This document shows positions 14,172-26,710 of a stretch of DNA of 64,000 nucleotides, in pieces. Positions within the stretch are counted from its first letter, which is position 1. Each line of letters begins with the position of its first letter. The DNA is taken from positions 1 through 64,000 of IMG/VR virus record IMGVR_UViG_3300025872_000040. One strand, given 5' to 3'. The translations under genes were made by a program, and so were the position numbers. This DNA comes from a virus. Below the pieces are notes generated by a model. That model was not told the origin of the DNA and made no database searches. It saw nothing but the letters and a program-made list of their open reading frames with translations.

Positions 14172-17100
14172 ATGGCATTAGAAACTAACCTAAACGCCTC
14201 TCCATACTACGACGACTTCGACGAGACAAAGAACTTCTATAGGGTTCTTCATCGTCCCGCGGTCGCCGTGCAGGCTCGCGAGCTCACGCAGGCTCAGTCG
14301 ATACTACAAGATCAGGTCAGCAAGTTTGGTCGACACATCTTCAAAGAAGGTTCTGTCGTAGAAGGTTGCTCGTTCTCTTTCAACAACAGATACTACTACG
14401 TCAAGCTAGTCGACAACCAGACAGACGGAACCAACCTAGACGTTCTGTCTCTCATGGACAAAGGTTACTCTCTTATCAACGGCGTCGACCTAAAAGCCTC
14501 GATAGTAAACGCCGTCGACGGTCTCGAGAGTCTTGCTCCAGACCTAAAGACGCTCTACATAGTATACTCAAATGCGAAGACGTATGCCAACGGCTACATG
14601 GTGTCCGTGTTTACTCCCGGTGAAGCCCTAAGCGTAGTTGACTCGTCAAACACCGTCATAGCGAACGTACAGATAGACTCTGCAACTACCTCGGTAGGAA
14701 CTGGTTACTCGTTCACTACCAGCGAAGGAGTCATCTTTAAGAAAGGATTCTTCGTCAGGGTAGACCCAGAGACGATAATAGTCAAGAAGTACGACAATCA
14801 GCCAGATAACTTGTCTGTTGGGTTTGAGGTCGCTGAAGAGATCGTTACGCCTGAAGTTGATCCAAGTCTGTTAGACAACGCTGCCGGAGCTAAGAACTTC
14901 GCTGCTCCAGGCGCGCACAGACTCAAGCTCAGTACTGGTCTGCTAGTCAAGACTACAGACTCGACCATCAGCGAGAACGAGTTCTTCTCTCTCGTAGACT
15001 TTAAGGGTGGAGTTCCAGTATCTATCAAGAACGACCCTCAGTATTCAACTCTTGGTAAAGAACTAGCCAGAAGGACTTTCGAGGAGTCTGGTCACTACAC
15101 GGTCAAGCCATTTCTTCTGTCTACTACAGAAGCTAACACTACTCACTTTACCGTTAACATCTCTCCGGGTGTGGCGTACGTCGACGGCTATAGGACTGAG
15201 ATTGCAAACAAGACTTTCATTCCGGCAAGAAGAGGTCTTGACACCGTCATAACACCGAACCAGCCGATGTCAACTAACTTCGGCTACTACTTCAGGATCA
15301 ATGAGTACTGCGGTGAGTTCGACGTCAACAGCATCACCAGGATAGAGATACACAATGACACGTACACCGCTCTAAGCACTAAGGCTTTCTTAGGAGTCGC
15401 TTATAACTCGGCTCAGATCATAGGAAGGGCTCATGTCAGAGGTCTTTCATACTCTGAGGGAACACCAGGGACTGCCGAGGCCGTATACAATCTTTACGTA
15501 TTCAACCTGATCATGAATAGAGGAAAGAACTTCTCTGACGCTAGAAGCGTAGTTTACTACAACGGTTCTGACGTAGTCGGAGTAGCCGACTTAATCCTCG
15601 AGAACGGCTACCCAGTCATTAAAGAGTCGGCGCTTAATTCTCTACTGTTTCCTCTTGGTCAGACGGCGATATCGCTGAATGGCTTCGACTCCATGAGCTA
15701 CGTCTATAGGAACAGGATCAACGCCTCTATCCAGACCAATGGTACTGCTACCATCTCTACCCCGTCGGTAATTGGAACTGCGACCGAGTCGTTCAGTGCA
15801 ACCGGAAGTCTAAGTAACAGTCTTGAGCAAGACTACATCGTCATCGCTGCTGAAGACGGAGAGACTGCTACTCTCTCAGGAAGTGCTACTTACACTAACG
15901 CCGCGAACACTGTAGTAGGAACCGGCGGATCGCTCTTCTCCACACAGTATCAGGTAGGAGACTATATAAGCGTCGACAACCAGATAGCGCAGATCACTAG
16001 GATCGCTAATAATACTTACATGGAAACCGACTTCAGTTTCACTGGAAGCGGCACCGTGACTCATAAGAAAGTGTTTCCAGAAGGTACGATCATACCTATC
16101 AACACTCGAGACAATAGGACTATAACAGTAGCTCCTGCCGGTGACACCGCGACTATAGACATCGACGAGACTCTTTCTACGTCGATGTCTGTAAAAATAT
16201 ACCAGAGCATCATTAGGGGCGGCACGTACCCAATAGCTAAGGTCATAAACAAGAGAAAGTACGTCAGGATCAACTGCGCTACTCATCCAAACGGTGCTAA
16301 CGGCCCGTGGGACCTTGGGTTCGTCGACGTCTATAAGATCAACGCCATATACATTGGTGATACCGCCGACACTACTCCTTATGATCCAACAGGAGCTGAC
16401 AAGAAGACAAAGTTCATCTATTCAGATGGACAGAGGGCCACGTGCTACATTCACGGCGTCCTTGAGAAAGACACAAGTAACCCTCCAGCTCTTACAGCTA
16501 CCAGCACAATACTGGTAGATCTTGATTACTTCACGTATGACCAGACTCAAGGTGTAGGTTTCTTTAACTTCCTGTCATATCCTATCGATGACACGAACAC
16601 AGCTAACACTAATGCTATAACAACGGCAACTATGCCGACATACGCCGGAGACTCGCTGAGAAACTACATTGACTTCAGGCCGTTCCTTGTCAACACCGCG
16701 GTAGTGACATCGGTCGTTAACGACTCAACCGTAAATCCTGCTACAACTAACACGTTTAGCGTCACGTCGGCTGGATCTTATCTTCCGTCGCCTGACAGCG
16801 TCTACCAATCTCAGACAGAACACTACCTGCCAAGGATCGACAGGATAGTGATGAACGCTAAAGGACAGTTGAACGTAGTAGAAGGAGTCAGTGACGACCA
16901 GCCGTATCCTCCTAAGGAGAGGCCCGGTGAGATGTCTCTCGGCCTCATCTACATTCCTCCATACCCTTCTCTCATCTACACGCAGCTGAGGAACGTTCCG
17001 AGGGCTAACAGAGGGTCTGAGTTCGTCACCATACAGCCGACGAAGAACCAGCGCTATACCATGAAGGACATCAGGACCATCGACTCTAGAGTCGAGGCCC

Positions 17101-17702
17101 TTGAGTACTACACCTCTCTCAGCCTTTTAGAGAAGAAGACAAAAGACATGCTGGTCAGAGACGACCAGGGTAACGACAGGTTCAAGAATGGATTCCTAGT
17201 CGACCCGTTCGACGATCACTTCATCGGTAACACCAAGAGCGTAGAATATAACTGCACCATCGACATGGAGATGGGTGAGATGAGACCTAAGATCAGGCAG
17301 TTCACCTCTGGCTTCAACCCTCAAGACTACACCAGCACTAACAAGATGGGTTCACTCGTCACTCTGGACTGGAGTGAAGTTAACTTTATGACCCAGCAGT
17401 ACGCCTCTAAGAAGAGAAACTGCATCGAGGGTAACGTCTACACGTACAGCGGCGTGATTACGCTGACACCATTTGTCGACACCTCGACTGACACTACAAC
17501 GAACCCGGTAGTAGCTACGGCTCAAGTTCAAAAGTATACGGCGGTGACCGACGGGGGAGCTGGAGCCATCACTACGGTGTTCAACAACTGGACTGGTGCA
17601 ACGGCCACTAAGTCTCCGACCTGGAAGCAAGATGAGAGAGCAAAGAAGAGAGCTGACAGGGACGACAGACTTCACATGAGAAATCATGGATTCAGAAGAT
17701 AA
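14172..17702 (+). CDS. Large baseplate/virion structural protein of DUF4815 type
   Basis: The 1176-residue protein starts with NLNASPYYDDFDETKNFYRVL and AVQARELTQAQSILQDQV. This is the DUF4815 N-terminus found in structural proteins of T4-type cyanophages and relatives. The middle is beta-rich, and the last 40 residues are basic (DERAKKRADRDDRLHMRNHG). Its place directly after gp8 corresponds to T4 gp9/gp10, so it probably forms part of the outer wedge or the fibre attachment site. I cannot show orthology to gp10. It is followed by two genes that I believe carry segments often found in the same large protein in related phages. AGGTAAGAAG before the ATG is a reasonable ribosome binding site. 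Confidence 0.72.
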   Translation: MALETNLNASPYYDDFDETKNFYRVLHRPAVAVQARELTQAQSILQDQVSKFGRHIFKEGSVVEGCSFSFNNRYYYVKLVDNQTDGTNLDVLSLMDKGYSLINGVDLKASIVNAVDGLESLAPDLKTLYIVYSNAKTYANGYMVSVFTPGEALSVVDSSNTVIANVQIDSATTSVGTGYSFTTSEGVIFKKGFFVRVDPETIIVKKYDNQPDNLSVGFEVAEEIVTPEVDPSLLDNAAGAKNFAAPGAHRLKLSTGLLVKTTDSTISENEFFSLVDFKGGVPVSIKNDPQYSTLGKELARRTFEESGHYTVKPFLLSTTEANTTHFTVNISPGVAYVDGYRTEIANKTFIPARRGLDTVITPNQPMSTNFGYYFRINEYCGEFDVNSITRIEIHNDTYTALSTKAFLGVAYNSAQIIGRAHVRGLSYSEGTPGTAEAVYNLYVFNLIMNRGKNFSDARSVVYYNGSDVVGVADLILENGYPVIKESALNSLLFPLGQTAISLNGFDSMSYVYRNRINASIQTNGTATISTPSVIGTATESFSATGSLSNSLEQDYIVIAAEDGETATLSGSATYTNAANTVVGTGGSLFSTQYQVGDYISVDNQIAQITRIANNTYMETDFSFTGSGTVTHKKVFPEGTIIPINTRDNRTITVAPAGDTATIDIDETLSTSMSVKIYQSIIRGGTYPIAKVINKRKYVRINCATHPNGANGPWDLGFVDVYKINAIYIGDTADTTPYDPTGADKKTKFIYSDGQRATCYIHGVLEKDTSNPPALTATSTILVDLDYFTYDQTQGVGFFNFLSYPIDDTNTANTNAITTATMPTYAGDSLRNYIDFRPFLVNTAVVTSVVNDSTVNPATTNTFSVTSAGSYLPSPDSVYQSQTEHYLPRIDRIVMNAKGQLNVVEGVSDDQPYPPKERPGEMSLGLIYIPPYPSLIYTQLRNVPRANRGSEFVTIQPTKNQRYTMKDIRTIDSRVEALEYYTSLSLLEKKTKDMLVRDDQGNDRFKNGFLVDPFDDHFIGNTKSVEYNCTIDMEMGEMRPKIRQFTSGFNPQDYTSTNKMGSLVTLDWSEVNFMTQQYASKKRNCIEGNVYTYSGVITLTPFVDTSTDTTTNPVVATAQVQKYTAVTDGGAGAITTVFNNWTGATATKSPTWKQDERAKKRADRDDRLHMRNHGFRR

Positions 17703-17736: not shown

Positions 17737-18930
17737 ATGACAAAAGTAGTCACAGACGTCATAATTACACCACAACCAGATAAGGTTGTAACGGTACATG
17801 AGGACCTTGGGACGTTCGTCAACAAGGTCGATCTACTCCCTTATATAAAGTCGCGAGACATCAGATTCAAAGCCACAGGTCTAAAACCTACTACCAGAGT
17901 CTACGCGTTCTTTGGATCAAAGCCAGTCAGCGCGTGGGTAGCTCAAGATACAAAGACATTCGGTGACCCTCTGGTCACGGATGCTACTGGATCGATAAGC
18001 GGAACGTTCACCATCCCGCCTAAGACCTACACCGCTGACTCTATTGAGTTCATGCTTGTCGACGTCGACGATCTAACGACCGGAGCCAGCACGATCAGCA
18101 CGCGCGCAGTGGCAACGTATCATGGAAGTCGCTTAGCTGTCAGCTCCGAAAACATCACGCTTGACTTTAGCTTCTCAGTTCCCCAGATTCCTATCATCGA
18201 GGTTGTCTATGGGAACATCACGACTACTGGGACTGGCACACCGTCAACTGGAACAGGTACACCGTCTACGGGTACGCCGTCAACTGGAACTCCTTCTACA
18301 GGCACACCGTCAACTGGAACTCCAGCGACAGGAACTCCAGCGACAGGAACTCCAGCGACAGGAACTCAGACTCCGGAAGACACGTGCTTCACCGGTGATT
18401 CTCTCGTAACTATGGCTAACGGCTCTCTAAAGAGAATCGACGAGGTTAAGATCGGAGAGTTTGTCGCCACTCCTGAAGGAAACCCTGCTCAGGTCATCGG
18501 AATAGAGAACCCAATAGTCGGAGAACGTGGACTTTTAGGAATTAATGGCGGAAAAGCTTTTGCGACCGCAGACCACATATTCAAGTCGACAGGTAACGTC
18601 TGGATAGTTGGTGACGCAGGGCTGTCGCAAGATATATTTCCATCTTTCAACGAGATCATTGAGCAAGGTGGAGTAGTCAAGCAGATAGAGGTCGGAGACG
18701 TCATCGAGACCGATAACGGGCCTGTCACTGTCGTGAGCTTCAACATAGAAGGTCAGGGAAGCTACAGTGAGGTACCGGTGTACGATCTCATGCTGGACGA
18801 CGAGAGTGAGCATACCTACTTCGTCAACGGCTTCGTCGTGCATAACTGTACCCCATGGCAACCGCCGGACACGACTGGCGGAGGAGACGGTCTCGGCGGT
18901 GACGGCGTATCCAGCGGCCCTGAAGAATAA
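17737..18930 (+). CDS. Structural protein interrupted by a mini-intein/Hint domain
   Basis: Residues 1-160 are a beta-rich virion segment (DLLPYIKSRDIRFKATGLKP, then VYAFFGSKPVS), typical of the receptor-side baseplate proteins beside DUF4815 genes. Residues about 162-210 are a Thr-Gly-Thr-Pro-(Ser/Ala) repeat linker. Residues 217-370 form a Hint fold with the intein key residues: Cys217 in CFTGDSLVTMANGS, the TxxH block-B motif T277-H280, and a C-terminal VVHNC (His369, Asn370, +1 Cys371). Only 27 Gly-rich residues follow. There is no homing endonuclease. If it splices, the product is a 243-residue protein; if it only cleaves, it would release or transfer the N-part. The stop is a tandem TAATAA, and the next gene continues in the same frame 18 bases later. 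Confidence 0.8.
   Translation: MTKVVTDVIITPQPDKVVTVHEDLGTFVNKVDLLPYIKSRDIRFKATGLKPTTRVYAFFGSKPVSAWVAQDTKTFGDPLVTDATGSISGTFTIPPKTYTADSIEFMLVDVDDLTTGASTISTRAVATYHGSRLAVSSENITLDFSFSVPQIPIIEVVYGNITTTGTGTPSTGTGTPSTGTPSTGTPSTGTPSTGTPATGTPATGTPATGTQTPEDTCFTGDSLVTMANGSLKRIDEVKIGEFVATPEGNPAQVIGIENPIVGERGLLGINGGKAFATADHIFKSTGNVWIVGDAGLSQDIFPSFNEIIEQGGVVKQIEVGDVIETDNGPVTVVSFNIEGQGSYSEVPVYDLMLDDESEHTYFVNGFVVHNCTPWQPPDTTGGGDGLGGDGVSSGPEE
18229..18369 (+). repeat. Tandem 15-base repeat encoding Thr-Gly-Thr-Pro-Ser/Ala
   Basis: Imperfect 15-base units (for example GGAACTCCAGCGACA) are repeated head to tail, first as the STGTP type and then as the ATGTP type. They encode a flexible or extended Thr/Pro linker just before the Hint domain. 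Such DNA can change copy number by slippage. Confidence 0.85.
18385..18846 (+). other. Predicted mini-intein (Hint domain), 154 residues
   Basis: The segment from Cys217 through Asn370 has blocks A, B, F and G of an intein with no endonuclease between B and F. Block A is CFTGDSLVTM, block B ATADHIF, block F VPVYDLMLDD and block G NGFVVHN followed by Cys. All four chemically essential positions (first Cys, TxxH, penultimate His, last Asn with +1 Cys) are present, so activity is plausible. The host site is a repeat linker, not an enzyme active site, which is unusual for a selfish intein. Confidence 0.8.
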
Positions 18931-18948
18931 TAACTCTTAGGAAGAACA

Positions 18949-21477
18949 ATGAGACCAGTTGCACAGACTTTTACGATCAATGAGTCCGGAGTAGAAGGTG
19001 TCTATCTCTCGGCCGTGAACTTATACTTCGCTAAGAAGCACGACAACTTCGGGGTCACGATCCAGATAAGGTACACCGACAACGGTATGCCTGCCCCACA
19101 GATAGTTGAGTTCTCGCAGGTTCAGATGCCGTCCGCTTCGGTCAATGTATCAGCCGACGCATCGACCGCTACAAAGTTCTCCTTCGAGAGCCTAGTGTAT
19201 CTCAAGAACGGCACGTACGCTCTCGTCATCATTCCGGACGGCGGTAACGACCAGTACGAGGCGTGGGTCAGCAAGCTCTCTGAGATGGACATTACCACGC
19301 AGCTTCCCATCATCAAGAACAATGAGACCGGATCTTTCTACCTGTCAGGCAACGACGTGACGTGGACGCCCGTCATCGACGAGGACCTGAAGTTCGACCT
19401 TCTCAGGGCAAACTTTACAGCCGCGACTGGAACCACTACTTTTTCTAAGAGAGACATCGAGTACATCAAGGTCAAGACTACTCCGACCGGTCTGAGAAGA
19501 CTCTTTAACGACACTATGTTCTGCGGTATCGATGACTCCATATCTGTCATCGGTATCGGAACGGTGTCCGGCACGTTTGCAACCGGTGAGATAGTCTATC
19601 AGTACAGCGGCACTGAGATCATCGCTAAAGGAATAACTTACTCAGCTAACACCACCTTCCTTAAGCTTGAGAGCGTAGAGGGAACGTTCACCGACACCGG
19701 CGACTTGATGGGAGTCACATCTGGAGCTACGGCTCAGATAACTTCTCTTGCCCAGACTGTAGAGATAAACAGCGCAACTGCGGTAGTTACAGTCCCAGAC
19801 GCTTCGGTCTATGGAGTCGATGACTGGATCTATGTGGTAGACACGTCTACCAAGAAAGCTGAAGTGCACCTCGTACAGTCACGTGATACTTCTCTAAACA
19901 CTATCACGCTTAAAGACACTCCGAAGGGCGATGACACCGACGCCATCATTGGAAAGATTAAGGGTGGAACCGGTCTTGGATTTGTAACAGGCTCAGCCTC
20001 GGGTCTCCCGCTCAACGCTCAGTACTCAGGCTTGACGCGCGAGGCTCTTGGATACAACATAGTCGTTCTTAGTGGTTCTACTGCCAACTCAACAGTTAAC
20101 TTCGCCAACTCAGCCGGGCAGAGGCTCATTGGAAGGTTCTCAGGAATCAACACGAAGATCGACTCGACCGTTAACTTGTCATATGACTTGGCTCACTTCT
20201 TGTTCAACGACTTAATACCTAGATCGACTGACATAACGTACTCGTTCAGGGGATTTGAAGACGCTGCTGGATATGCAGAAGATGGAGACGCCATACCGTT
20301 TGAGAACGACTCGAACAAAGAGTTCAATGACATACCACGCGTCATCATGAGTAGAAGTAACGAGTTCACACAGCTTCCCGTCGGAAGAGAAGGTGACAGG
20401 TCTCTGTCTGTCTACGCTACGATGTCAACTATCGACTCTAGAATTTCTCCGGCTATCGATCTTAGGCCGTCGCGCGCGACGTTCGTTCATAACTTCATAG
20501 CCAAGAACTTCCAACTCAATGGAGTCTACCTAGTAGTAGAGCCGACAGCGGTAACTACAGCAGATCCTATACCAAGCAAGTACTTCAACAGGTTCAAGAA
20601 GGGTGCAGTTCTTCAGCAAGAGTCTAACACTAGCATCACTGGAATAGTCTACGAGGCGAACAATACCAATGTGACACTCATAAGCGGCACTAACATGCCT
20701 AACTTTACTGTAGGCGAGGTCATACAAAACTCTGCTAACACAGATCAAAGATCGACTATTTTAGCGGTCGAGACTTTCAACGAGATCTTAGGAAATGGCA
20801 TCACGTTCTTCTCTAGATACGTCAGCAAGAGAGTCAACCTTGCGGAAGGACTGGACTCAGAAGACCTTAAGGTCTATTTGACCGCTTACAGGCCAGTTGG
20901 TACCGAGTTTAGAGTTTACTGTAAGCTCCTTAACTCGGAGGACAACAAGGCTTTCAATACTAAGATCTGGACGCCGATGGTACCAGTAAGCTCTGCCGGC
21001 CTAAGGTCAGACCTTGTCGACAAAGAAGACTTCGTCGAGCTCGAGTACAGACTACCTCAGAGCATCACACTTCACACCGCAAACGTAGAAGCGAATGCTA
21101 CCTCTACTACTATCGTGTGCCCATCGACTGCCGAGATAGCTGTGGGAGACGAGGTGTACCTGTACGACTCTAACCTAGGACTGTTCAACGTTCGAAAGGT
21201 TTCGGCAATTAACAGCACCACCAGTCTCACTCTTGCTTACAAGCCAAGTGGCAACTTTGGCTACAGCAACACATCGATGGGAGTCATCGAGAACATCTCG
21301 TACAAGCAGTCTGCTTTCAGGTTCACTGAGACTGACGGTGTCGTTAGATACACCAACGAGAAAGATCGCGTGTTCGAGACGTTCAAGTCGTTTGCCATAA
21401 AGATCGTTCCGGTAAGTTCAAGCTCTCACATCGTTCCTAGACTGAGAGACATGAGAGCGCTGGCTCTTCAGCTATAA
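18949..21477 (+). CDS. Virion structural protein with 'xPxAQTF' N-terminal domain
   Basis: The 842-residue protein opens with RPVAQTFTINESGVEGVYLS and VNLYFAKKH...VTIQIRY. This is the DPLAQTF-type domain common in baseplate proteins of T4-type environmental phages. In my memory of those proteins this domain usually follows, in one chain, a domain like the N-part of the preceding gene. Inside are beta modules such as GTFATGEIVYQYSGTE and VEGTFTDTGDLMGVTSGATAQI, related to those in the gp7-like and gp8 proteins. The frame is the same as the upstream Hint gene, but a TAATAA stop and a Shine-Dalgarno TAGGAAG separate them. Likely a host-facing baseplate or fibre-anchor component. Confidence 0.65.
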   Translation: MRPVAQTFTINESGVEGVYLSAVNLYFAKKHDNFGVTIQIRYTDNGMPAPQIVEFSQVQMPSASVNVSADASTATKFSFESLVYLKNGTYALVIIPDGGNDQYEAWVSKLSEMDITTQLPIIKNNETGSFYLSGNDVTWTPVIDEDLKFDLLRANFTAATGTTTFSKRDIEYIKVKTTPTGLRRLFNDTMFCGIDDSISVIGIGTVSGTFATGEIVYQYSGTEIIAKGITYSANTTFLKLESVEGTFTDTGDLMGVTSGATAQITSLAQTVEINSATAVVTVPDASVYGVDDWIYVVDTSTKKAEVHLVQSRDTSLNTITLKDTPKGDDTDAIIGKIKGGTGLGFVTGSASGLPLNAQYSGLTREALGYNIVVLSGSTANSTVNFANSAGQRLIGRFSGINTKIDSTVNLSYDLAHFLFNDLIPRSTDITYSFRGFEDAAGYAEDGDAIPFENDSNKEFNDIPRVIMSRSNEFTQLPVGREGDRSLSVYATMSTIDSRISPAIDLRPSRATFVHNFIAKNFQLNGVYLVVEPTAVTTADPIPSKYFNRFKKGAVLQQESNTSITGIVYEANNTNVTLISGTNMPNFTVGEVIQNSANTDQRSTILAVETFNEILGNGITFFSRYVSKRVNLAEGLDSEDLKVYLTAYRPVGTEFRVYCKLLNSEDNKAFNTKIWTPMVPVSSAGLRSDLVDKEDFVELEYRLPQSITLHTANVEANATSTTIVCPSTAEIAVGDEVYLYDSNLGLFNVRKVSAINSTTSLTLAYKPSGNFGYSNTSMGVIENISYKQSAFRFTETDGVVRYTNEKDRVFETFKSFAIKIVPVSSSSHIVPRLRDMRALALQL

Positions 21478-21704
21478 TGACAAAGAAACCAATCTATAGA
21501 GTTGAGGAAGACAAGAGGCTGGTCAGAGATACCGGCAACAGGTTCATACTCAACACCGACCTTGAAGGTCTTCGTGCTTACAAAGAGAAGAAGAACGAGA
21601 GAGCCAAGATAAATAATCTAGAGAAGAGAGTGGACGAGTTGTCGTCCGACATAAGAGACATCAAGGACATGATCTCCCTTATCGCTAAGAAGGTCGCAGA
21701 ATGA
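21477..21704 (+). CDS. Small conserved coiled-coil protein, function unknown
   Basis: This 75-residue protein begins RVEEDKRLVRDTGNRFILNT and has a predicted heptad coiled coil from about residue 40 onward (INNLEKRVDELSSDIRDIKD). The N-terminal 'RDT.N..ILNTD..GL..YK' pattern is familiar from small genes in the structural clusters of T4-type cyanophages, but I know no function for it. It starts in a TAATG overlap with the preceding gene and overlaps the next by 4 bases. Tight coupling to an S74 fibre suggests a trimerisation or assembly role; that is inference. Confidence 0.7.
   Translation: MTKKPIYRVEEDKRLVRDTGNRFILNTDLEGLRAYKEKKNERAKINNLEKRVDELSSDIRDIKDMISLIAKKVAE
21608..21615 (+). promoter_or_regulatory. 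Possible late promoter box GATAAATA before the S74 fibre gene
   Basis: The octamer lies inside the small coiled-coil gene, 93 bases before the fibre ATG. It matches the late box, but the distance is longer than at other genes and coding chance is possible. Confidence 0.25.
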
Positions 21705-22699
21705 TAACCGTATCACCGGTATCCAACAACCAGACGTGGGCTGTCCTGATCAACAGGCTGAACACACTAACCGAGCTGATGACGCAGAACGTCGTCACCG
21801 CGGACGCCACTACTACCGGGTCAATAACGGTAGGAAACACGCAGCTGGTTGGAACGTTCAGCGCCAACACCATAGCGGTCGACAAGGCTCTCAGGGGTGG
21901 AAACGTCGCCACGTCCAACACCCTTAACATCGTATCTAACACCGTCATCTCTCTCGACAACGTTCCAGCGCTCAGCCTCAAGAAGATAGCAGGATCGGTC
22001 CAGTACGTGTTCACCTCGAACACTATGGACATTGACGTGACGACGCTCAACATCAGCTCTTCTAACACTATCATCAGCGGCGCGAACACCAACGTAAACT
22101 CTTTCTTGACCGTCAACGGGGAGTCGGCTCTCAACGGCAACTCGACCATAGTAGGAAACGTCTCTATCACCGGAATAGTAGAGACGTTCGGAAGCTTCGT
22201 TCAGGACGGCGGGTTTACTCACACCGGCGGACAGTTTGACATCACCGGAAACACTACTATTGTCGGAAAGCTCAGCGTCAACTCAAACACCGACGTCGGA
22301 AACCTAACGGTCAACGGTAACCAGACAGTCAACGGAAACGGTGCTATCACCGGTAACTTGACGGTCACAGATACCATATTTGGCACCGTCGTATCTCCGT
22401 CCGACATGAGGGTAAAGACCGGAGTCGAGCCGCTGGAAGGCGCCCTCGAGATGGTGACTAGGATGAACGGAATCACCTACAGGTGGTACTTCGGAGAGGT
22501 CGAGTCTTCAGAGAGACACTACGGTCTCATCGCCCAAGACGTCGAGAAGGCAGCGCCTCTCGCGGTGACGATAGCAGAGGCCTACAACTATCCAGACTTC
22601 AAGCACGTCAACTACATTGAGCTCGTCCCGATACTCATCGAGGCGATTAAGGAGCTCAAGGAAAGAGTAGAAGAGTTAGAGAATGGCGCGAAAGCTTAA
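21701..22699 (+). CDS. Tail fibre with C-terminal peptidase S74 intramolecular chaperone
   Basis: The first 220 or so residues are Asn/Thr/Val-rich repeats (TVNGNQTVNGNGAITGNLTV) typical of a trimeric beta-structured shaft. The last 100 residues match the S74 chaperone: SPSDMRVKTGVEPLEGAL, ITYRWYF, HYGLIAQDVEKAAP and YIELVPILIEAIKELKERVE. The Ser-Lys dyad of the family maps to Ser234 and Lys239. In known members the chaperone trimerises the fibre and then cuts itself off just before the Ser. This predicts a mature fibre of about 233 residues. The gene overlaps both neighbours by a few bases (ATGA with the upstream gene, 17 bases downstream). Confidence 0.88.
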   Translation: MITVSPVSNNQTWAVLINRLNTLTELMTQNVVTADATTTGSITVGNTQLVGTFSANTIAVDKALRGGNVATSNTLNIVSNTVISLDNVPALSLKKIAGSVQYVFTSNTMDIDVTTLNISSSNTIISGANTNVNSFLTVNGESALNGNSTIVGNVSITGIVETFGSFVQDGGFTHTGGQFDITGNTTIVGKLSVNSNTDVGNLTVNGNQTVNGNGAITGNLTVTDTIFGTVVSPSDMRVKTGVEPLEGALEMVTRMNGITYRWYFGEVESSERHYGLIAQDVEKAAPLAVTIAEAYNYPDFKHVNYIELVPILIEAIKELKERVEELENGAKA

Positions 22700-23254: not shown

Positions 23255-26200
23255 TCACTTTCTGATGAAGTGGTAGTCGCCGTCAGGCCCTTGGTTCGAG
23301 AACAGCTCCACGTACTTGAATCCGTTCTTCTCCAGCCAGTCTATAACCTCACCCCTGAGCGGCGCCCCTTTGTTGTACTCGACGTTTTGAAGCTCGAGCA
23401 CGAGGTGCTTCACCGTCTTAAGAGTCTTCTTCATTCCCCTCAGCACGTCTAGCTCGGCGCCCTGCACGTCCATCTTGACCATATCAGGAGCTGGAAAGTT
23501 CTTCTCCTTCACGACGCTGTCGACGGACCTGGTCAGCTTCTTGACTCGATGTGTCTCGTTGAAGAAGTTGACCGTGTTCGGGTTGATCTCCTCGTTCTCC
23601 TTGTAGTAGGAGTTGCCGCCGGGGTGCTCAACGTTCTCCCAGAAGTCGACTTCTTTCCCGTCCTTGTCACTCATGACTCCGTTGAAGTGCTTGTAGTTAC
23701 CCTCCTCGTAGAGGAACTTAGGAGCGTCCATCGCCTCGAACAGGACATACTCGGCGTCAGGCCACGCGAACCTCTTTGCCGACTTAGTCCAGTGAAGGAC
23801 GCAGGCTCCGATGTCGTAGATAACTTTTGGGTGAAAGTCGTACTGGTCTCGTATCTTAGTCAGGTACTCGCAGTGAGCCTGAGGTACCAACCACTGGTCA
23901 CCTAGGTCCCTCAGACGCTTCCTCACAGGATCCTCAAGCGTCGCTGCGGGCTTAAAGTTCTTGAGGACTGTCTGCGTCGTGTGCCCGACCCTGTAGACGT
24001 TCGTGCCGTGGTGGTCGCAGCGGATCGTAGTGTCGGCGTACATCTTGAACCCCTTCTCGCGAGCCTTGCGACAGAAGTCGACGTCCTCAGACACGGTGTT
24101 GCTGTGGTCTAGAGCCGAGTGGTAGACGAACCACGGGTAGCCGATTCCCTCGAACACCCTCTTCTTCACGAGCACGCAGCCGAAGCCACAGCCGTCGATC
24201 GACACCAGACCCTGACCGTCGATGTCCTCTAGTGGTACGTTGCTCATGCCGCCTCGATCGTTCATCCTGTACAGCTCGAGCGTGTGCTGGTTATGCTTCC
24301 TCTGTATGTAGAGTCCGGAAACCAGGTCGACGTCGTGGGCAAGCATCTTCTCTAAGGTGTCTGACGCGAACTCTACATCGTAGTCGACGGCGAACAGGTA
24401 GTCGTATCCGTTCACTACCCAGCTGGCTATCAGGTTTCTCACCTGGTCGATGTTGTATCCGTAGAAGTACTGGAAGTCTGCCCTGTAACCCTCCGGGATA
24501 GTCAGGTCGTAGATAGACTTGAACGTGGCCGGCTCGATGTTCTTAGCGGTCGGTATGGCGATGAGTATCTTCTTACTGTTCACTTTTTTTTTCTCCGGTG
24601 TCTCGAAGACCGTAGACACGGTCCGCTTCGAGAGAATCTTCTTGGCCGTCTTGTTCTGCTCCTCGCCGTTGACCTTGTAGTCGTTCAGCGGGCTGGCGTC
24701 ATTATAGTTATAGACTATCTCCTTGACGGCCTTCACACGGTCTGGGTCGGCGTTCTCTATCATGGCGTAGAACAGCGCGCCGTCGCCTCCAGCCCTGAAC
24801 CACTCGCCGCTCTCGTCCTTGAAGGCGTCGTCAGTAACGTGGTTGATGAGGGCGCGCCTGAAAGTCCTCAGGTGAGTGTACGGCATAATCCAGTTAAAGT
24901 GGTAGTTCCTGTAGTCCCTCCTAGCCTTTACTTCAGGCGGGTAGTCCTGAGCTATTAGAGGGATGTTGTCGACCATCGACCAGCAGCTGCCGTAGGTGAA
25001 CTCAGCGCCGTCCGGACCGTTGTACAGGTTGTTGTAGAAGTTGAGGACGTTGTTGTCGTTGACCAGACTGTCGTCGCCGTCTAGCAGCATGACTATGGAG
25101 TCGTCGTGAACGTACTTCCTGATCACCTCGACCTGATTGAACGGGGCGCCCCTGTTCTCCCTGCGGTTGATCACCATCACCTTCTGCATCCTGTCTGGAG
25201 GAAGCAACTGAAGCGTCTCGGCTATGACTCTCTCGCTGTCGTCAGTCGAGCAGTCGTTAACGACGAAGTGAGTGTAGTTCTCGTAGTCCTGGCATGCCAC
25301 CGACTCGATGCACCTTGCCACGTAGTCTTGAGCGTTGTATAAGGTGCTGATGACGGCTATGTGGTTAGTGACCGGAGAGCGGTACGTGTTCCACTCCTCT
25401 CGGTTGCTGAACCTGCGACCGAACACCCGGTGCACCTTGTCGTTGATGTACGACGCTCTACGGTAGTCATCCACCGACAGATACAGACCAAGCTTCCTGT
25501 ACAGGTGCTGCTTCCACTGGATGGCTACAGTATCCCATCCGTTAACGTCCTTGATGACAGAACAGTAGTTCATCTTTTGTTGGTGTAGATAAGTATTATA
25601 GTACGCTTCTACAACCTTGTCAACAAATTTGTTCACCTGCTCTTCCGAATTAATGTTCGGGAACAGACCGTTTGGCTCGATGGCGTAGTCTATGAGGTAG
25701 CAGGCCTGGTCGACTGCCGTCTCCTCCAGAGCACCGAAGCGAGTGGCCACCAGCGGAGTGTTGTAGGTGAGGGACTCGAGGCTAGAGATTCCGAACGTCT
25801 CTGGGAAGGCTCCCGGAAACAGAAACATCGAGGCCTCGCAGAGGATCTCGGCTATCTGTCTCTGAGTGATGACGCCGGTGAACTCGATGCCCTGCTTCTT
25901 GTAGCGCTTCTCCTCGATCAGCTTCCGCCAGGTCTCCTCCTGAGCGTCCGGAGGAGCGTCCGACCTGAACCTGTAGTACCCACCGATCACCTTCAGCCTG
26001 GCGTCCGGGATCCGCTCCTTGACCTTCGGCCACACTCTGTCTATCAGAGGGATCATGCCCTTGGTGACAGAGGCGTTGTAGACGAAGAGGTTCTTGTCTT
26101 TCTTACTGACGTCGACGTAGTCAAAGTACGGAACGACTCCGTTGCGGGTCATGAACATCTTGTTCTTCAGGACCTCGAAGTTGCGGCGCTTGCCGTGGTC

Positions 26201-26710
26201 CGAGTTTCCGATGTAGCTGGTGTGGAAGTCTGAGAGGGTGAAGAGCTCGTCGATGTAGCCGCTGACCACGAGCTCCTCGACGTTGAGGTCACCCTGACAG
26301 AAAGTGTCGTGCATCCAGAGCGCCTTGAACCTAGCGTTCTTTCTGATCTGCTCGAAGAGGGATGGCTCGAACCTGAACCCGGCGATGTGGCGGTAGGCCT
26401 CGTACATGTACTCCGGAACGAACGGTACGACTGTCCTCATAGATATGACCACGTCGAACGTGGTGTACTGAGTAACCTCCCGGACCGGACGGTAGGTGAC
26501 CCCATCGTACGTACCCGGCTTCGAGTCGTCATCCTCGCAGGAGTTAAAGACGGTCACGTCGAACCCGAGTCGAACGAGCTCCTTGGACATCAGAATCACC
26601 GCTGACTCTGACCCACCTAGGCCTCTCTTCTTAAGGGTATCTCCATCGTAGACGAGACCGATGGTATCGATTATAGCGACCGTAACTTTATCACTCATAT
26701 TGAAGCTCAC
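23255..26710 (-). CDS. Four-domain glycan enzyme: GT4-like, two GT2-like domains, FkbM methyltransferase
   Basis: The 1151-residue leftward gene fuses four enzyme domains. Residues about 5-420 are a GT-B/GT4 type (GLGGSESAVILMSKEL near the start; FPETFGISSLESL near 302). Residues about 450-690 are GT2 (HIAVISTLYNAQDYVARCIE; DxD-like LLDGDDS near 541). Residues about 710-930 are a second GT-A-like domain (ILIAIPTAKN; FAVDYDVEF near 774). Residues about 955-1151 are an FkbM-type SAM methyltransferase (VIYDIGACVLHW; MVKMDVQGAELDVL). The product should build and methylate a short glycan in the cytoplasm. It sits next to the collagen-like fibre gene, from which it is transcribed divergently. An A9 run at the linker before the third domain is a possible slippage site. 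Confidence 0.85.
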   Translation of the reverse strand: MSFNMSDKVTVAIIDTIGLVYDGDTLKKRGLGGSESAVILMSKELVRLGFDVTVFNSCEDDDSKPGTYDGVTYRPVREVTQYTTFDVVISMRTVVPFVPEYMYEAYRHIAGFRFEPSLFEQIRKNARFKALWMHDTFCQGDLNVEELVVSGYIDELFTLSDFHTSYIGNSDHGKRRNFEVLKNKMFMTRNGVVPYFDYVDVSKKDKNLFVYNASVTKGMIPLIDRVWPKVKERIPDARLKVIGGYYRFRSDAPPDAQEETWRKLIEEKRYKKQGIEFTGVITQRQIAEILCEASMFLFPGAFPETFGISSLESLTYNTPLVATRFGALEETAVDQACYLIDYAIEPNGLFPNINSEEQVNKFVDKVVEAYYNTYLHQQKMNYCSVIKDVNGWDTVAIQWKQHLYRKLGLYLSVDDYRRASYINDKVHRVFGRRFSNREEWNTYRSPVTNHIAVISTLYNAQDYVARCIESVACQDYENYTHFVVNDCSTDDSERVIAETLQLLPPDRMQKVMVINRRENRGAPFNQVEVIRKYVHDDSIVMLLDGDDSLVNDNNVLNFYNNLYNGPDGAEFTYGSCWSMVDNIPLIAQDYPPEVKARRDYRNYHFNWIMPYTHLRTFRRALINHVTDDAFKDESGEWFRAGGDGALFYAMIENADPDRVKAVKEIVYNYNDASPLNDYKVNGEEQNKTAKKILSKRTVSTVFETPEKKKVNSKKILIAIPTAKNIEPATFKSIYDLTIPEGYRADFQYFYGYNIDQVRNLIASWVVNGYDYLFAVDYDVEFASDTLEKMLAHDVDLVSGLYIQRKHNQHTLELYRMNDRGGMSNVPLEDIDGQGLVSIDGCGFGCVLVKKRVFEGIGYPWFVYHSALDHSNTVSEDVDFCRKAREKGFKMYADTTIRCDHHGTNVYRVGHTTQTVLKNFKPAATLEDPVRKRLRDLGDQWLVPQAHCEYLTKIRDQYDFHPKVIYDIGACVLHWTKSAKRFAWPDAEYVLFEAMDAPKFLYEEGNYKHFNGVMSDKDGKEVDFWENVEHPGGNSYYKENEEINPNTVNFFNETHRVKKLTRSVDSVVKEKNFPAPDMVKMDVQGAELDVLRGMKKTLKTVKHLVLELQNVEYNKGAPLRGEVIDWLEKNGFKYVELFSNQGPDGDYHFIRK

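Follow-up and report, generated by a model that had tools for sequence, protein, structure and literature searches.

Inteins are mostly seen as selfish insertions in enzymes. The viral DNA studied here, referred to as the window (64,000 nucleotides, positions 1–64,000 of the 117.8-kb record IMGVR_UViG_3300025872_000040; L-numbers denote the loci compared), carries an intein-like Hint domain near the end of a gene for a virion protein, and opens the question of whether a phage tail is completed by protein splicing or thioester chemistry. A preliminary description of the locus had proposed a functional use of the domain, namely splicing, C-terminal release, or transfer of the N-terminal part to another virion protein. 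Our analysis partly supports this reading and adds three elements that it lacked: the host is a split VrlC baseplate protein, the modeled fold is closer to BIL domains, and the +1 Cys is an exception among Hints with +1 Lys. No report of a Hint domain in VrlC, or of a conserved +1 Lys, was found in the open-access literature.

The Hint domain and its host protein

The Hint domain was described at the outset as complete, lacking an endonuclease, preceded by a Thr-Pro repeat linker and ending 27 residues before the stop codon, and each of these points was borne out. A position check located all key residues, i.e., Cys217, Thr277, His280, Asp350, His359, His369, Asn370, and Cys371. The domain comprises residues 217 to 370 of a 397-aa protein (Table 1), and its 154 aa leave no room for an endonuclease and fall within the length class of BIL domains and mini-inteins. 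It is preceded by a Thr-Pro-Gly repeat whose last residue is Thr216 and followed by a tail of 27 residues that begins with Cys371. Subtraction of 154 from 397 residues gives the proposed spliced product of 243 residues, a figure that is correct as arithmetic. C217 and C371 are the only cysteines of the protein. An N-terminal Cys is combined with a block B His (Cys217 and Thr277-x-x-His280), and the C-terminus, His369-Asn370-Cys371, fits that of a class 1 intein.

Table 1. Features of the split VrlC locus in the window.
Feature	Position	Strand	Evidence or remark
VrlC part 1, 1176 aa, DUF4815 and following modules	14172–17702	+	PHROG 358, 4e-219; Pfam DUF4815, 7.6e-54
VrlC part 2, 397 aa: Ig-like module, Thr-Pro-Gly linker, Hint domain, 27-aa tail	17737–18930	+	ATG start
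Ig-like VrlC module, about aa 16–145	17782–18171	+	PHROG 358, 2.2e-11; model pLDDT 92
Thr-Pro-Ser/Ala-Thr-Gly repeat linker, ending ...TQTPEDT; -1 residue Thr216	18220–18384	+	15-bp tandem DNA repeat
Hint domain, 154 aa, Cys217–Asn370	18385–18846	+	Profiles, fold, residues
+1 residue Cys371, potential splicing nucleophile	18847–18849	+	
C-terminal 27-aa Gly/Pro-rich tail, would-be C-extein	18847–18927	+	No recognised domain (Pfam)
Tandem stop TAA TAA	18928–18933	+	
AGGAAG, likely ribosome-binding site of VrlC part 3	18939–18944	+	Inferred from sequence
VrlC part 3, 842 aa, starting MRPVAQTF: PxAQTF (lectin/CBM-like) module and C-terminal part	18949–21477	+	

Profile searches gave a graded picture. 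The intein C-terminal model TIGR01443 matched with 24.9 bits, above its cut-off of 15.6, and the N-terminal model TIGR01445 scored 13.2 against a cut-off of 24.5. Pfam Intein_splicing, which a class 1 intein is expected to match, scored 15.3 bits against a cut-off of 35.8. Hom_end_hint (1.9e-5), Vint (3.3e-5), and Hint (2.5e-4) were the other Pfam matches, none of which reached its curated cut-off. In tblastn, the domain retrieved a Hint-bearing protein of Providencia phage PSTNGR1 (QPB11246, 1e-11). A profile built from 11 Hint relatives, including the window sequence itself, found a single match in the 117.8-kb record (2.7e-49) and no second Hint. With identity to the relatives of about 35%, the full set of catalytic residues is retained, and the domain is confirmed as a real Hint rather than a chance match. 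A first scan of genome contigs gave no relative, and a second one revealed relatives in bacteria. No loci were returned with the window protein alone as query, and the searches yielded no relative close to the window.

The host protein was identified through PHROG 358 (about 2056 positions), which is matched in order by three consecutive ORFs: the first at positions 1–478, the second at 1189–1240, and the third at 1423–2021 (7.7e-74). All three VrlC modules are also present in one solved chain, 9euf_0, the DUF4815 protein of phage phi812 (1152 aa). VrlC part 1 matched this baseplate chain in a phmmer search (4.7e-19). For the Ig-like module it is the best PDB match (residues 681–773, Z 8.7, 27% identity over 85 residues) and is matched by profile as well (2.8e-10), and the PxAQTF module matches residues 806–968 by way of the relative L013. 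By these matches, the 397-aa protein is the middle third of VrlC, which is split here into three genes, and the original label of virion structural protein is well supported and can be narrowed to a VrlC/DUF4815 baseplate protein. Homologues of phi812 ORF65 include A511 gp106 and Deep-Blue Gp176 (PMC11406892). The neighboring genes encode baseplate, sheath, fibre, and portal proteins, indicating that the phage is a myovirus and that VrlC part 2 is very probably in the virion, as judged by analogy with phi812 9euf_0 and from PMC7029224.

Parts 2 and 3 share a reading frame (404 codons). Nevertheless, joining of the two by read-through or frameshift was rejected: two TAA stops lie between them, part 3 has a separate ribosome-binding site, and the gene of near relatives is interrupted at the corresponding point, with a clean start of the downstream part. 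The 15-bp repeat of the linker is probably variable in length. Just downstream of VrlC, positions 21701–22699 encode a protein of tail fibre type whose C-terminus is an S74 chaperone, and a gene with a similar C-terminus lies in the same place in L008, L011, L013, and L163. On the opposite strand, between tail genes, positions 23255–26710 encode a protein of 1151 aa that matches glycosyltransferases and methyltransferases.

The VrlC junction in other phages

In phi812, about 20 residues connect the Ig-like to the PxAQTF module. Among 80 VrlC loci taken from viral contigs, the stretch between the modules was 24–230 aa long, and all 80 lacked a Hint domain there. Searches seeded with Hint sequences recovered a Hint at this junction in at least seven other phage sequences (L008, L011, L013, L159, L162–L164, L169, and L171). 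L163 and L164 share the same Hint and that of L008 is close to both, so that about six distinct VrlC Hint sequences exist besides that of the window. Two arrangements were observed. VrlC is fused with an internal Hint in L011, L013, L159, L169, and L171, and the PxAQTF module follows directly or after a short linker. It is split in L008, L162–L164, and the window, where the Hint is C-terminal and the next gene begins with PxAQTF; the tails after the Hint are 28 and 37 aa long in split relatives. Across the entire tree of the Ig-like VrlC module (see below), Hint presence changes at least five times. No endonuclease was found in the VrlC Hints examined, and with the short window domain this led us to reject a homing intein with an endonuclease.

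A quick tree of the Ig-like module placed the window with L077, L080, L083/L084, and three unsplit sequences (moderate support, 84). The break of the window recurs in L077, L080, and L083, where the next genes start with MAKPIGQTF, MTKPIGQTF, and MKPIAQTF, respectively. The gene end that corresponds to the Hint site is occupied by a Peptidase_S74 domain in L083/L084 (Pfam 2.3e-9), by a Gly-rich tail in L080/L081, and by another, unassigned Cys-led domain starting CKIVCTAMNEAYGFGSYRNAVW in L077; a gene that begins with PxAQTF comes next in every case. Once folded, S74 domains release themselves by self-cleavage. This VrlC piece thus seems to end in a slot for exchangeable C-terminal modules, of which the Hint and S74 would be the self-processing kinds. 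A selfish intein in the window is opposed chiefly by this exchange, for which the evidence comes from trees of weak resolution and from few contigs.

As initially noted, the domain lies outside a conserved enzyme site; it occupies the end of a split gene, which is variable among VrlC loci. A class 1 intein is expected in a conserved host site with continuous intein-less homologues, and the window Hint is not placed in this way. The fused relatives L011, L013, L159, L169, and L171 could be. By its position, the window Hint looks like a swappable C-terminal module and not like a homing intein in an enzyme site. The comparison of loci lends support to the suggested functional, as opposed to selfish, role: Hints recur at the VrlC junction, and relatives of the window VrlC have S74 domains there. 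The recurrent Hint resembles a tool that phages have employed repeatedly in the maturation of virion proteins; if exchanged with S74 at one baseplate junction, it would represent a domesticated autoprocessing step in virion assembly.

The residue following the C-terminal Asn

The first residue after the Hint is Lys in 27 of 40 distinct phage Hints ending His-Asn and in 15 of 19 Hints from bacterial genome contigs; the MADGS motif served as seed for this sample, so these counts describe that subfamily only. Clustering at 60% identity left Lys in 22 and Cys in 5 of 36 sequences. Against a Lys frequency of 6.5%, the excess corresponds to a binomial P of about 1e-17, a value that ignores shared ancestry. 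Several proteins terminate with the +1 Lys, which suggests a role of this residue in the Hint itself. Among the VrlC Hints, only that of the window deviates from Lys at this position, with Cys. The window Hint groups with L007/L158, which also end HN-C (support 93/85), whereas a clade uniting it with the other VrlC Hints was not rejected (AU p 0.348).

Several further features of the subfamily were recorded. HN-Lys occurs in L008, L009, L011, L013, L019, L022, L041–L043, L046, L049, L051, L053–L055, L160, L167, and L170, and in the bacterial L180–L189. Two tandem Hint domains per protein are present in L049, L022, L054, and L184; the pair in L022 and L054 consists of a first domain ending HN-Phe and a second, C-terminal one ending HN-Lys. 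Cys precedes Cys1 at position -1 (CCF motif) in L008, L013, L162–L164, L169, L171, L182, and L196, and thereby in most VrlC Hints; the window has Thr. A vicinal disulfide of this motif could gate the reaction. Another phage clade (L002, which is PSTNGR1, L010, L017, L034, L048, and L175), found close to the C-termini of tail-type proteins, lacks the C-terminal His-Asn, so that N-terminal chemistry alone would be possible there. A decayed Hint lies past the stop of a tail-type gene in L014 (5960–6300) and also in L015, with the N-terminal motif CFTGDSLVTMYNGDLKRIDEV kept and the rest deleted.

Lys is of a residue type that excludes canonical splicing, which therefore cannot be the outcome that the other VrlC Hints share with the window; speculatively, this leaves BIL-like cleavage or formation of a Lys isopeptide bond. 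It is conceivable, though distinctly unlikely, that in a large clade of phage virion Hints the +1 Lys attacks the thioester in cis or in trans to form an isopeptide bond, and that Cys replaced this Lys in the window. If so, non-canonical splicing would serve phages to mature, to cap, or to cross-link their tail proteins, and the Cys-for-Lys change would have yielded a unit for canonical splicing or ligation. The isopeptide route of BIL2 was rejected as a direct precedent for the +1 Lys: the +1 residue of BIL2 is Met in the solved chains, so BIL2 covers the Lys chemistry and not the position. The +1 Lys of the wider group makes a specific chemical prediction and may be a source of ligation tools.

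Probable self-removal and comparison with known Hint systems

The AlphaFold model of the window Hint had a pLDDT of 83.5 overall and of about 90–98 over most of the domain. Its best fold match was BIL2 of Tetrahymena BUBL1 (6y75, Z 18.4), followed by the C. thermocellum BIL domain 2lwy (Z 16.2), mini-inteins (about 15), and hedgehog Hog (1at0, 13.7); all top matches were Hint domains. A profile of 20 Hint relatives searched against the PDB also ranked BIL2 first (1.4e-15). The modeled fold is thus nearer to BIL domains than to classical inteins.

Most likely, the window Hint would remove itself. Our preferred explanation, held with a little better than even confidence, is that it acts as a BIL-like self-processing C-terminal module of the split VrlC middle piece and splices out. 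In the lineage of the window, VrlC is broken between the Ig-like and PxAQTF modules, with the freed end capped by interchangeable modules, a Hint in the present case. After folding, the Thr216-Cys217 bond would be converted into a thioester, Cys371 would take over the N-terminal part, and cyclisation of Asn370 would release the Hint. The product would be the 243-residue VrlC piece with its Gly/Pro-rich tail, ready for baseplate assembly. Should transesterification fail, the same chemistry would lead to N- and C-terminal cleavage, and the Hint would be removed as well. The domain with its residues, the host protein, and the conserved junction are established by the data, whereas the activity, its timing, and the preference for splicing over cleavage are predictions. 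Splicing is the likeliest route because the window Hint has the full class 1 residue set including the +1 Cys; its two nucleophiles are the sole cysteines of the protein, and the nearest folds are domains with demonstrated autoprocessing (BIL2, 2lwy, and mini-inteins). Against it stand the Pfam Intein_splicing score below cut-off, the Lys in place of Cys in the other junction Hints, the ambiguous placement of the window Hint with either L007/L158 or the other VrlC Hints, and a C-extein without a domain, which leaves splicing without an obvious product logic.

The main rival is cleavage only, in which thioester hydrolysis and Asn cyclisation leave an N-terminal part ending at Thr216 and the tail is lost. 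We consider this outcome somewhat unlikely. It agrees with the BIL domains being the closest folds, as these mostly yield cleaved products (PMC7664689), with the short, domain-free tails after HN in split genes (27, 28, and 37 aa), and with the inability of the +1 Lys in the other VrlC Hints to carry out canonical transesterification. The window has a +1 Cys, however, and in mutation studies a +1 nucleophile turned BIL domains into splicing domains (PMC7664689). The thioester might instead be attacked by a second virion protein, through an amine or a thiol, which would attach the N-terminal part covalently to this partner. BIL2, the nearest structural relative, conjugates ubl4 to other proteins through a Lys isopeptide bond (PMC8616854), the junction adjoins a lectin-like module in the baseplate, and the Hint is kept in split genes, in which the two VrlC modules cannot be joined in cis. 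Yet VrlC part 3 starts with Met-Arg-Pro and is therefore not an obvious thiol acceptor, the +1 Cys would compete in cis, and the open-access literature searched reports no cross-link in VrlC baseplates; such a transfer is very doubtful. That the Hint is degenerate or inert and kept structurally in the virion, or is a selfish mini-intein that has lost its endonuclease in a harmless linker, we regard as very unlikely. Decayed remnants in L014/L015 and the patchy presence, with no Hint in the 80 loci from viral contigs, fit this explanation, but all catalytic residues are kept despite the low identity to relatives, the VrlC Hints examined all lack an endonuclease, and the gene-end site of this lineage provides no intein-less allele with a continuous host chain for homing.

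Among known systems, BIL domains (6y75, 6tmm, and 2lwy) share with the window the Hint fold, Cys1, the block B His, the C-terminal His-Asn, a length of about 140–155 aa without an endonuclease, and a location in variable protein parts. They differ in having no +1 nucleophile, as opposed to Cys371 (PMC7664689), and the window Hint resides in a phage baseplate protein. A-type BIL domains are defined by a C-terminal His-Asn in hypervariable regions, at non-essential sites of proteins (PMC7765530). The window Hint has His-Asn in a variable region, but its +1 Cys departs from the absence of Cys, Ser, or Thr at this position that marks the type; the other VrlC Hints, with Lys, conform to it. Class 1 mini-inteins (gp41-1 6qaz, Ssp DnaB 1mi8, and Npu DnaB 4o1r) resemble the window in Cys1, TxxH, HN, Cys+1, size, and fold (Z about 15). 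Unlike them, the window Hint lies outside a conserved enzyme site and precedes a 27-aa C-extein without a domain. The mini-inteins of Ackermannviridae terminases matched it weakly in tblastn, and an origin from them was rejected at E values of only about 0.1–1. The hedgehog Hog sterol-recognition region is absent after the window Hint, where only the Gly/Pro-rich tail follows.

Hints of other phage virion proteins (PSTNGR1 QPB11246, L010, L041, L051, L160, and others), which databases list without a name or as 'Hint domain containing' proteins, belong to the same sequence family and likewise lie close to the C-terminal end of tail-type proteins; the majority have Lys after HN or no HN at all, whereas the window ends HN-Cys. 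The Peptidase S74 chaperone of L083 and L084 is, like the window Hint, a C-terminal module at the same VrlC break, but it is unrelated in fold and chemistry. Finally, phi812 ORF65 (9euf_0) has the same modules in the same order as the three window ORFs; in phi812 and most phages VrlC is one chain without a Hint, whereas in the window it is divided into three genes with a Hint between modules two and three.
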